Shown here: positions 27,882 to 31,433 of the stretch, piece after piece
How positions within the stretch are numbered: position 1 is the stretch's first letter
Layout of the letters: each line of letters starts with the position of its first letter
Assembly (NCBI GenBank): GCA_028285755.1
Contig: JANQOQ010000004.1
Coordinates: 260,720 to 324,719 of the forward strand
Direction of reading: 5' to 3'
DNA from: Puniceicoccaceae bacterium
Lineage (GTDB): Bacteria; Verrucomicrobiota; Verrucomicrobiia; Opitutales; JAFGAQ01
DNA length: 64,000 bases
Made by a program: the position numbers and the translations under genes
The notes under the pieces: model-generated
The model's database searches: none
What the model was told of the DNA's origin: nothing
Seen by the model: the letters and a program-made list of their open reading frames with translations, nothing else

Positions 27882-28736
27882 TTAGGATTGATCCGCATGC
27901 AGGGAAAATCGCTCGCCGACTTCCAGCACACGGTAATTTTGATTTCTTCGCTCACAAGCCTCGATAAAAGCCTGCGGACTTTCAGTATTAAAGGTAAACA
28001 TATCGTAATGGCAAGGGATCACGCATTTACACCCGGCATTATGTGCCAGTGCAGCCGCCTCCTGCCCCCATAAATTACCGGACACCCGCCTTTCCTCCAG
28101 CATGCCGTTTATCGGCAGGAGTGCCACATCCAGTGCATGCGGTTTCAGCAGATTCGCCAGCCCGTTGATCGGTCGGGTATCCCCGCTGTGGTATATCGAC
28201 CATTTCCCGATATGCAGCACATAGCCCATATACAAGCAGCGCCCCTGCTTATCGCGATCGACTTCATTATGCGCCGCCGGCATCCCAACAAATCGCACAT
28301 CCCCGATGCTCACCTCCTGCCCATCATTCAGACCGACTGGCCAATCCTCAGCCACACCCAGCCGCTCCGCCACGAAGCTCCGATTGGCCTCCGGGATTAT
28401 TAGCTTCGCATCCGGCGACGCTTCAAAAAGTGGCTTGAGCGTCTCCGCATCCAGGTGATCTGTATGATTGTGCGTCGAGGTCACCCCATCGATAAAATCC
28501 AGCTTCCCCGGCTCAATTGCCAGCTCTGTCATCCGATCATGTGGCTTATCCGTTGCCGCATACTTTCGCGTCAACGAGTCTGACAGGTAAGGATCAAACA
28601 GCACACTCTGCCCCTCCGCACATGCAAGAAATCCACTCTGCCCCAACCACCAGATATGCAGACAATCGGGATGATTTGCGCGCGCCTGACGGATGTCGCT
28701 CAATAGCTGCTCACCCTTTTGCTTTGCAGGCTTCAT
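27882..28736 (-). CDS. Metallo-beta-lactamase-fold hydrolase, UlaG-like
   Basis: 284 aa from the ATG at 28736, which overlaps the MetE-like stop by 4 nt; the longer frame upstream lies inside that gene. Zinc motif THNHTDH (His89, His91, Asp93, His94), then AAHNEVD and HSGD further on. UlaG, the L-ascorbate-6-phosphate lactonase, is the best-known relative, but general MBL-fold lactonases and phosphodiesterases share the pattern. Together with the phosphotriesterase-like gene it gives the operon two candidate lactonases. Substrate unknown. Confidence 0.87.
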   Translation of the reverse strand: MKPAKQKGEQLLSDIRQARANHPDCLHIWWLGQSGFLACAEGQSVLFDPYLSDSLTRKYAATDKPHDRMTELAIEPGKLDFIDGVTSTHNHTDHLDAETLKPLFEASPDAKLIIPEANRSFVAERLGVAEDWPVGLNDGQEVSIGDVRFVGMPAAHNEVDRDKQGRCLYMGYVLHIGKWSIYHSGDTRPINGLANLLKPHALDVALLPINGMLEERRVSGNLWGQEAAALAHNAGCKCVIPCHYDMFTFNTESPQAFIEACERRNQNYRVLEVGERFSLHADQS

Positions 28737-29770
28737 GCAATCCCAAGCTCTTCCTTCACAATATTCACGCCAGCCACCATATTCGCCATCTTCTTCTTGG
28801 CCGCCCAGCGCGCCGTCTGGCTGAATCCGCAATCCGGAGCAAACGCCAGCCGGTCCGCAGGCGCAAACTCCAGGCATCGCCGCACCCGATCCGCAATCAC
28901 TTCCGGCGGCTCGATGTAGTAGCTCTTCACGTCGATTACACCTACCGCAACGTCTTTGGTCTTCGCGATCTCCTCAATCCGCTCTAACTCGCTGAACTCA
29001 CGGCTCGCCATCTCCAGATGGATCTCCTCCACCGCAAAATCCAGGAAATCCGGAAACAACGGCGCATACTGCCGCGGAGCCACCGCACGGGCCTTAAAAT
29101 TGCCAAAGCACAGGTGCGTAGACAACCGGCTCTTCCCCACTGCAGGCTCTACCGTACGGTTAAAGATATCCACAAAGCGCTTCGTATCCTCCTTGTGCGC
29201 ATAGCAGCTCATCGAGGGCTCATCCACGGTGATCTCCTCACACCCGATCTCCACGAGCTTCGCAATCTCATCGCGCACCAGTGGCAGCAAAGCCTCCGTC
29301 AATGCATAGCGATCGGGATACTGATCATTCGGCAGCAAACGCCCGCTCAGCGTATACGGTCCCGGTATGCTCGCCTTCAGGACCGGTCCCTCCGGTGCAA
29401 GGCGCTTTAGCAGTTGATACTCCTCAACGACTCCCAAACCCTTTTCGGCTCGCAGGGTATCCACTACCTTATGCTTGCCGCGTTGGTCATGCGCCGGAGG
29501 TCCAAACATCCGGGGCGATTTCGATTCCATCTCAATGCCCTGCAAGTAGCCGTAAAAGGACAGATTAAAATCAAAGCGTGTCTGCTCGCCGTCCGTAATC
29601 ACATCAAGCCCGGCAGTCATCTGATCATGGATCGCCGTGATCACTGCATCTTCTTGCATTTCTATAATGTCATTGCTGCCAAAGGCGTCGAGATAGCCGG
29701 AAGCATGCTCCAGCCATGAGGGAAATGGATAGCTCCCGATTACAGTCGTTTTTAAGGGTAATTCTTTCAT
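28733..29770 (-). CDS. Stand-alone MetE C-terminal-like protein (cobalamin-independent methyltransferase fold)
   Basis: 345 aa from the ATG at 29770 (MKELPLKTTVIGSYPFP, the normal beginning of this fold). Zinc ligands seem kept: His and Cys in THLCFGN, Glu in EEIHLEMA and Cys in PDCGFSQ. ITVDEPSMS is the homocysteine-site block. The N-terminal half of classical MetE is missing, so it resembles core-MetE and other short members. Some of these use non-folate methyl donors. In a sugar operon a role in moving a methyl group from an O-methylated substrate is possible but only speculative. Overlaps the next gene by 4 nt. Confidence 0.88.
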   Translation of the reverse strand: MKELPLKTTVIGSYPFPSWLEHASGYLDAFGSNDIIEMQEDAVITAIHDQMTAGLDVITDGEQTRFDFNLSFYGYLQGIEMESKSPRMFGPPAHDQRGKHKVVDTLRAEKGLGVVEEYQLLKRLAPEGPVLKASIPGPYTLSGRLLPNDQYPDRYALTEALLPLVRDEIAKLVEIGCEEITVDEPSMSCYAHKEDTKRFVDIFNRTVEPAVGKSRLSTHLCFGNFKARAVAPRQYAPLFPDFLDFAVEEIHLEMASREFSELERIEEIAKTKDVAVGVIDVKSYYIEPPEVIADRVRRCLEFAPADRLAFAPDCGFSQTARWAAKKKMANMVAGVNIVKEELGIA

Positions 29771-30062
29771 AAATAGGTAAGGAGAACCAATCTCAGATTC
29801 AATAAATGAACAGGGTGTGAGCAAAAAAGCGAGCAGCGCAAGGCGGCTTGTCCCGTAGTGTGCGAGCGCACATGAGGGCCAAGCCAACGCCGCGAACTTG
29901 CTTTGTTTTGCCGCATCCTTGTAGGACAATGCGTTTTACGTTTTTGAGCACGTTCGCACAGGCAGAAAAGGGTTTCAACCCAACCTTGCCTGTGCCGTTT
30001 GCTCATAAATCGTAAAATCGTCATTGCCATGTTTATTTTGGAATTTGAGATGGGTTCTAGAT
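29771..30062. other. Structured intercistronic region with two large inverted repeats
   Basis: 292 nt inside an otherwise tight operon and with no gene. Hairpin 1 at 29842-29891 pairs GGCG, GCTTG and CCC blocks and has an inner TGTGC/GCACA stem with a 4-nt loop. Hairpin 2 at about 29924-30028 is an imperfect palindrome of about 100 nt: CAATG, TTTTACG, TGAGCA and the 9-bp GCACAGGCA each find their complements in order. TGAGCAAA at 29817 and TTTGCTCA near 29998 could be terminal inverted repeats of a small mobile element (MITE). An RNA element for processing or attenuation is the alternative. Confidence 0.6.
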
Positions 30063-31433
30063 TTAAAAATTCAGTTTCCAGTCGTGCTCTCCAGTATGGG
30101 CCACATTCCCAGGCAATGCAAGGACTGCCCCCCACGAAGCGAGCCGATCCCGCAAAGCATTCACGTTGAGTCCACGAGCTGATTCATCCTTTTCCAGCGA
30201 CAGCGCTGCAGCCGTCCCGACTGCCTGTCCCATACTCATGGTCTGCCCCATCGAACGACAAGAAGCATGCGCATCGTGGGTCGCGCTGAAGCAACGCCCC
30301 GCCACCCACACGGTATCCTGCCCACGCGGCACCAGCGTACGATAAGGCACCTGATAAACGCCCCCGTCCGGCACGTAGCCCCATACGGTCTCTTCAGCAC
30401 CGCCCTCACCTTTTCGGTGATCTTCTATCGGCGCACCGCACACCAGCACGGCATCGTCAAAGGTAGCTGCACTCAGGCAATCCTCCTTGGTCAGCCGGTA
30501 TTCCCCATATACCCGTCGCGTCTCGCGCACACCGATATGATGCGAAAGCCCAATAATATTCGAGCGCTCATAGCCCGGCACACAATTCCGGAAAAACTGC
30601 TCGTAAATAAACGCCTGCCGCCGGCCTTCTTGCTCCGCGACAGTCAATTGCTCAAAATCCAGAGCATCCAGATCGCCGACACGCACAGCTACAGTCGCGA
30701 TGCACCCCTCTATATTCATGCGGTGGGCACTTCCGCTCTTGCGAGGCAGCGGGTAAGTTCCATTATCCACAGCTTCAGCCATCCGCTGCATGAGCATCTT
30801 TTTGCCTCCTGCATCCGCATAGGCCTGCAGGTCCACATTCGCCATGCGAAAGGTCGTGGTAAGCGTCTGCGCCGGGTCAATATCGCCCGCCTTCTCATAG
30901 TCAAGGCCTGCCAGATAGCACAGATCCGCATCCCCGCTCGTATCGATAAACCGCTTCGCCTTGATACGGAAAAAGCCGCGCTTCGTCCAGATAACGACCG
31001 CCTTCAGCTCGGAATCTGCTTCCACATCCACGAGATGCGCGTGAAGTAGCACTTGAACCCCTGCCTCTTGCAACAGCTCATCCCAAACCAGTTTGAGCAG
31101 CTCGGGATTATAGTTAACACCCGTCCCGGCCCCATAAGTATTGGGCCTAAGGAATACTCCATTACGATCATTAAGCGTATTAACAACCGTATCCGGAATA
31201 CCGCCCACCACTTTACGCGGGCTATCTCCCGGAGTGAAAAACCCATAGAAAGTATCGAGTATCTGTGTACTCGTTCCGCCCAAAAAGCCATAACGCTCTA
31301 CCAGGGTCACTTTTTCTGCGCCCGCCTTGCGCGCGGCCAGCGCAGCACAGCACCCCGCCGAGCCGGAGCCAACGATCAGCACATCGGTCTCCAGCAATAC
31401 CGGTATTTCCGTTTTGTTTAGAAAGGAATACAT
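30063..31433 (-). CDS. FAD-dependent oxidoreductase (PF12831 type), cytoplasmic
   Basis: 456 aa. FAD-binding motif DVLIVGSGSAGCCAALAARKAGA at the N-terminus, partner GATHR-like segment replaced by GFLGGTSTQI, and a C-terminal MSMGQAVGTAAALS that contacts the flavin. No signal peptide, unlike the two relatives at 47539 and 49487. These proteins are common in planctomycete and verrucomicrobial sugar loci, but few have known substrates. It abuts the SIS gene with no gap. The structured region follows it before the MetE-like gene. Confidence 0.9.
   Translation of the reverse strand: MYSFLNKTEIPVLLETDVLIVGSGSAGCCAALAARKAGAEKVTLVERYGFLGGTSTQILDTFYGFFTPGDSPRKVVGGIPDTVVNTLNDRNGVFLRPNTYGAGTGVNYNPELLKLVWDELLQEAGVQVLLHAHLVDVEADSELKAVVIWTKRGFFRIKAKRFIDTSGDADLCYLAGLDYEKAGDIDPAQTLTTTFRMANVDLQAYADAGGKKMLMQRMAEAVDNGTYPLPRKSGSAHRMNIEGCIATVAVRVGDLDALDFEQLTVAEQEGRRQAFIYEQFFRNCVPGYERSNIIGLSHHIGVRETRRVYGEYRLTKEDCLSAATFDDAVLVCGAPIEDHRKGEGGAEETVWGYVPDGGVYQVPYRTLVPRGQDTVWVAGRCFSATHDAHASCRSMGQTMSMGQAVGTAAALSLEKDESARGLNVNALRDRLASWGAVLALPGNVAHTGEHDWKLNF

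Follow-up and report, generated by a model that had tools for sequence, protein, structure and literature searches.

The only long gap in the operon, between the genes for a FAD-dependent oxidoreductase and a cobalamin-independent methionine synthase-like (MetE-like) protein, is occupied by a mobile element in the 64,000-nucleotide stretch of the Puniceicoccaceae genome analysed here (the window). Probably this is a MITE mobilised by the IS5 family, carrying a bulged hairpin core that is selected for its fold, stranded in its present host and inserted in the operon. By category the element is a bacterial MITE, being shorter than 500 bp, devoid of a transposase gene and present in multiple copies that share terminal inverted repeats (TIRs), with a target duplication in relatives. 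That category is already known; the surprise is the portable core, which crosses phyla, and no description of such a bulged hairpin core was found in the literature searched. The copies, their ends and target flanks, the pairing, the conserved bulges and, in a relative, an IS whose ends match closely are all observed directly; movement in trans, selection on the fold, the reader of that fold and any influence on expression are inferred.

The element (Table 1) consists of two hairpins of about 105 nt each inside TIRs of 17-19 bp, and in the RNA fold an outer helix built from the element ends encloses both hairpins. Without the element the FAD and MetE-like genes would be only about 16-18 nt apart. 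The open reading frames of at least 80 aa across its span are a 5'-extended MetE-like frame and one of 122 aa, neither of them transposase-like as judged by length and inspection, and no promoter- or terminator-like sites were detected in 29700-30150. When folded as RNA, positions 29771-30062 reach -133.1 kcal/mol, compared to -81.5 +/- 4.4 in 200 dinucleotide shuffles of the same region (z = -11.6; none of the 200 as good). The large inverted repeats noted in a preliminary description are thus real, while the extent given to them (29842-30028) cuts hairpin 1 in half, the true unit being 29784-30057. Both exact repeat pairs listed there are present, GCACAGGCA (29956-29964) with TGCCTGTGC (29987-29995), and TGAGCAAA (29818-29825) with TTTGCTCA (29998-30005). 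The latter pair had been taken for possible terminal repeats, a proposal ruled out by the fold and by the alignment of copies, which identify them as internal stem parts, one per hairpin, and place the true ends at GAACCAATCTCAGATTC and GAATTTGAGATGGGTTC.

Table 1. Positions of the element, its parts and the adjoining genes in the window.
Feature	Position	Strand	Basis
MITE-like element, whole (274 bp between flanking TA dinucleotides)	29784..30057	+ (strand of the hairpin 1 motif)	aligned span of five other genome copies, one internally deleted
Left flanking dinucleotide, GA (decayed)	29782..29783		TA in other copies
Left terminal inverted repeat, GAACCAATCTCAGATTC	29784..29800	+	copy comparison
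Right terminal inverted repeat, ending GAATTTGAGATGGGTTC at 30057 (minus strand GAACCCATCTCAAATTC)	30041..30057	-	copy comparison
Right flanking TA, intact	30058..30059		sequence; copy flanks
Hairpin 1, bearing the conserved bulged motif CAG-CGC-AA-GGC ... AAC-GCC-GCG-AA	29814..29918	+	fold; covariance model; column conservation
Bulged motif, 5' half (GCAGCGCAAGGCGG)	29833..29846	+	column conservation in 37 hairpins; pattern scan; position read off the sequence
Bulged motif, 3' half (AACGCCGCGA)	29887..29896	+	column conservation in 37 hairpins; position read off the sequence
Hairpin 2, hairpin 1 design inverted and further diverged	29924..30030	-	hairpin 1 model matches in relatives; fold
FAD-dependent oxidoreductase gene, upstream in the operon; stop codon about 3 bases outside the right TA	30063..31433	-	PF12831, E 5e-102
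MetE-like gene, downstream in the operon; start about 11 bases outside the left edge	28733..29770	-	PF01717, E 1e-26

A BLAST search of the region against its own genome returns eight matches, six of which are substantial copies, including that in the window (74-100% identical), the remaining two being a 36-base fragment and a hit on the opposite strand at the end of one of these copies. The copies begin and end at a common inverted repeat, GAACCYATCTCAAATTC (in the copy L006 the variant GAGGGTATCTC), adjoined by TA, and this end pattern occurs 21 times in the host genome versus three times for the reversed pattern. Copy L005 has lost internal sequence but retains its ends. Two host elements of 60 bp (L051, 1501-1561, and L054, from 1501) hold little beyond two terminal repeats and are possibly minimal mobile derivatives. 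Two further host loci, L069 and L070, are recovered by a covariance model of hairpin 1 (E 6e-8 and 2e-7) and likewise have two long hairpins enclosed by ends, here of a different sequence, TAGGTAGTGTTAACGATTT and TAGGGAGTGTTAATGATTT. The MITE-like nature suggested in the preliminary description is borne out by the copies in the genome (five besides that in the window), the shared TIRs, the duplicated target bases in relatives and the closely matching IS ends in a relative's genome, and the pairing is likewise conserved in relatives, where covariation is found. Both conditions set there for a refutation, a lack of other copies and a lack of conserved pairing, are thereby contradicted. A DNA search of the host's family detects the element in one of five genomes, the host itself, and genes of the PF13358, PF13340, PF01609 and PF01797 families were not found in the host genome (assembly 97% complete). 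As no IS5-type transposase is found in the host, its copies look stranded. PF01609 genes do occur in the host's family (eight loci in two of the five genomes), but were rejected as partners as none has window-like ends.

The distribution of the core was followed with the covariance model of hairpin 1 (R1), built from the six host copies, which finds matches in 26 of 372 genomes of the order (E <= 0.01), among them Cerasicoccus frondis (Verrucomicrobiota, class Opitutia, order Puniceicoccales in the NCBI taxonomy). At four loci (L085, L078, L075 and L086) the model also matches the second hairpin on the opposite strand, and the element is therefore an inverted pair of hairpins. In a wider scan, a degenerate core pattern (GCAGCGCAAGGCGG N30-60 AACGCCGCGA) retrieves 98 stretches from the genome_contigs collection, of which 80 were examined as loci and 48 have paired ends according to a script and a hand count of the table. 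The paired-end loci comprise 29 in C. frondis and others in C. maritimus, three Opitutales/Opitutaceae MAGs, Lampropedia hyalina, three Kribbella species, Nocardioides speluncae, an Actinomycetes MAG and a Lachnospiraceae MAG. The other 32, which are partly sorted, include loci cut by contig ends, gammaproteobacterial and Chloroflexi right ends lying too near for the script, and chance matches in coding sequence (for example L116, L122, L123, L134 and L146). In the gammaproteobacterial copies the ends lie nearer the motif than the script allowed, and three loci were confirmed by end sequence. Five gammaproteobacterial loci (L259, L261, L263, L264 and L266, from genomes G373 and G374) carry core variants with one arm enlarged by a further GGGAAGAGCGAAGCGAAGGGTTCCC-like block or by another hairpin. 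The core motif is thus seen from Verrucomicrobiota to Actinomycetota and Proteobacteria, with other ends in Lampropedia, Kribbella, Nocardioides and Gammaproteobacteria, and beyond the order the elements measure about 140-170 bp, with one hairpin and stems unrelated in sequence. This set was picked by the motif and is uninformative on motif conservation, but does show that ends and stems vary. The core pattern has no matches in viral_contigs, the Lampropedia element has none in the plasmid collection, and a short exact pattern of the host hairpin 1, being too narrow, has none in genome_contigs.

Conservation of the fold was analysed in 27 hairpins detected with R1, including its six training copies, all aligned by fitting to the model. 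In this alignment 91.7% of the cells form standard pairs, 38 of the 42 base pairs have changed on both sides, none of 500 shuffles reaches any of five pairing measures, and pairing falls to 38-40% when the partner is slid by 1-3 columns. Double-sided changes are evident even among just five host copies (21 of 110 pairs). The unpaired bases, counted in 37 hairpins (41 rows minus four reverse-palindrome rows), are close to invariant, with AAC at 97/100/100%, AA at 89/92% and CAG at 91/83/84%, and in the short CGC/GGC helices most positions exceed 90% (lowest 59%), against an identity of 30-75% in most stem columns. A G-U pair at the base of the hairpin is retained in 24 of the 26 rows with letters. 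Among wobble combinations G-U outnumbers A-C by 84 to 22, with 42 of the G-U cases derived from two fixed pairs; the ratio is 42 to 22 without these and 30 to 22 without two more, a strand bias too weak to serve as proof in deciding between RNA and DNA. The recurrence of the folded core in distant phyla under different ends hints that the fold itself is protected by evolution, and most likely the folded core is under selection as RNA or single-stranded DNA. The conserved pairing and unpaired bases belong to a mobile element found across genomes and loci, not to the FAD/MetE-like operon.

Other sources of structure in this position were considered. A known structured RNA family was rejected, as neither the window nor 10 related loci contain anything at the gathering score of Rfam 15, two tRNAs excepted, and the matches at relaxed thresholds are weak and all far below the cut-offs. 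The element resembles the Rfam families in having conserved pairing with covariation but differs in this lack of a gathering-score match. A Rho-independent terminator or riboswitch of the operon was likewise rejected, given the lack of terminator-like sites noted above and the presence of copies at other loci.

The target sites and ends point to the mobilising system. In C. frondis, 27 two-ended copies read Y-TA[element]TA-R, with Y in 27/27 and R in 27/27 and one TA altered on each side, the TA being either duplicated or part of the element end. Twenty-six C. frondis copies are 97.6% identical on average, and 142 end matches are found versus none in the controls; amplification has therefore been recent in this species. 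Many C. frondis contigs start inside an element copy (L201-L212, L214-L216), and copy number in draft genomes is therefore underestimated. Of 12 copies in three gammaproteobacterial genomes, 8 are bordered on both sides by the same 3-bp TNA (TTA, TAA, TGA), which reads as a target duplication. IS5-family subgroups duplicate TA or TNA. One of the gammaproteobacterial genomes (G372) contains an 865-bp IS with perfect 18-bp ends, GAACCTATTCAATATCTT, and TAA on both sides, encoding two ORFs of the DUF4096 and DDE_Tnp_1 types, the second above the NCBIfam IS5 cut-off (transpos_IS5_3). Among the MITE ends of G372 are GAGCCTATTCAATATCTC and GAGCCTGTTCAATATCTC, and its MITE ends depart from those of the IS at 2 or 3 of 18 positions (up to 16/18 matching). 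A similar case is an 887-bp DUF4096/DDE IS in Cerasicoccus (L224), one end of which matches the left end of the core-bearing locus L150 over 21 of 22 bases, although L150 is truncated without a matching right end, the match spans two Cerasicoccus species, and this and the G372 match both come from genomes other than that of the window. The DUF4096 + DDE_Tnp_1 (transpos_IS5_3) elements hence agree closely with the MITEs in ends and target flanks in two lineages, but differ in that the G372 IS lacks the core motif, and the core is therefore more than an internally deleted form of that IS. Empty sites were not found, a comparison of joined flanks to the retrieved loci giving one partial match and no clear case. 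An IS630-type element was rejected as partner: its gene is found beside a C. frondis element (L217), yet this IS has different ends (GTGTGGTGTCAGC) and is located outside the element at its TA, which makes it a neighbour. Elements of this type abut MITE ends at TA at two contig ends of C. frondis (L217 in contig C9 and L205 in C53), as if the MITE's own TA were the IS630-type target.

Competing explanations for the conserved structure have to be weighed against selection on the fold. An origin of the palindromes by chance, in an intergenic region of unusual length, is ruled out for practical purposes by the z-score of the fold, the copies elsewhere and the double-sided changes among the host copies. 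Another alternative is a plain MITE in which stem compensation arises by template switching between single-stranded DNA arms with no selection on the fold. Quasi-palindromes are known to be corrected by template switching, covariation in palindromes can arise from such arm-to-arm switching, and the arms are complementary along nearly the entire element in every lineage examined. However, template switching should remove mismatches and bulges, and yet AAC, AA and CAG rank with the most strongly conserved positions, and the G-U at the hairpin base is equally kept, which makes this explanation unlikely. The retention of bulges that such switching should erase is the main reason to suspect a reader of the fold, and some factor may read the folded form. 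One candidate would be an HUH (RAYT-like) or other hairpin-binding enzyme acting on the bulged motif in a functional single-stranded DNA hairpin. Inverted bulged hairpins resemble the REP/REPIN design, and PF01797 genes occur in 20 of the 26 element-bearing genomes versus 165 of 346 others (p 0.004), although this association may arise simply from differences in genome quality and from genomes with abundant mobile DNA. With a host that has element copies yet no PF01797 gene, and with TIRs and duplicated TA/TNA targets that are DDE features, we regard the HUH possibility as improbable.

The structure may alternatively be an RNA feature of gene ends, tolerated or kept as a shield of transcript 3' ends, which in this operon would make the FAD portion of the transcript more stable. 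Such shielding has been proposed for REP repeats. Fifteen of the 22 intergenic C. frondis copies lie between convergent genes, as opposed to 9 of 126 other intergenic regions at the same loci (Fisher p 1e-9), and when length is accounted for, 15/22 exceeds a 22% share (p 5e-6); several copies are also located less than 20 bases from a stop codon. REP repeats are placed likewise (PMC3733652). However, this placement may equally be explained by least harmful insertion sites, simple ORF calling was used and puts 4 of 26 C. frondis copies inside a called ORF, and the host copies are not mainly between convergent genes. We therefore consider a role as 3'-end shield possible but rather doubtful. The C. 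frondis ends start with TAG and the target is YTAR, and insertion into a TAA or TAG stop therefore recreates a stop codon; several copies are found exactly at stop codons.

Under the favoured explanation, a MITE moved by the IS5 family with a fold-selected core, an IS5-family (DUF4096-type) transposase would move the element in trans by recognising its TIRs, and insertion would take place at a TA-containing target, the element having no transposase gene of its own. The interior would be an inverted hairpin pair in which the stem sequence is free to change as long as it stays complementary, while a few unpaired bases and the flanking G-C pairs would be held near constant, presumably by something that recognises a folded transcript or single-stranded DNA. 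In the operon the element would add 274 nt of very stable structure between the FAD and MetE-like genes, and may in this way affect operon expression, conceivably the balance of upstream and downstream products suggested in the preliminary description.

Several known repeat classes share parts of this design. Bacterial MITEs that have been named include QMITE2 of Coxiella, Chunjie, NEMIS, RUP and ERIC (PMC10969869, PMC3733652). Like the present element, bacterial MITEs are short, lack a transposase gene, have TIRs and a small target duplication, are expected to form a very stable transcript stem-loop and are often located near genes; here, by contrast, a bulged core recurs across phyla and the TIRs vary between lineages and within one genome. 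The likeness to NEMIS/Correia, RUP and ERIC is a general one (TA target, folding). REP/REPIN/BIME repeats with RAYT share the bulged hairpins, the inverted pair and, in C. frondis, the position near gene 3' ends, but the present element has long TIRs, TA/TNA flanks and a length of 140-280 bp, in a host without PF01797. A REP/REPIN is a 20-40 bp palindrome with a GTAG/CGTC end tag and no TIR, and the element is set apart by its hairpin length and its TIRs. The palindrome-associated transition elements (PATEs), derived from IS200/IS605 (PMC4853749), are similarly palindrome-rich and non-autonomous; the present element differs by its TIRs and target duplication and by a host without an HUH transposase.

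The recurrence of the core with different ends allows a further, tentative proposal, for which the case is suggestive though short of probable: the bulged hairpin may be a portable and ancient module that outlives its transposases and has been repeatedly coupled to new IS5-type ends in several phyla. Such repeated re-coupling would be understandable if a conserved protein, of the host or of transposition, recognises the fold (unpaired CAG, AA and AAC around CGC/GGC stems) and aids persistence of the element. MITEs are usually viewed as leftovers of IS elements, with their ends as the sole conserved part. Here the ends vary between lineages while unpaired bases within a fold are constant across an order. 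For the study of intergenic regions this carries a warning, as covariation may be the mark of a mobile element and not of a regulator acting on the adjacent genes. The fold also constitutes a concrete ligand for protein-binding or transposition assays. If the core is indeed a portable module, it would represent a class of hitch-hiking element that is defined by its structured core and not by its ends.
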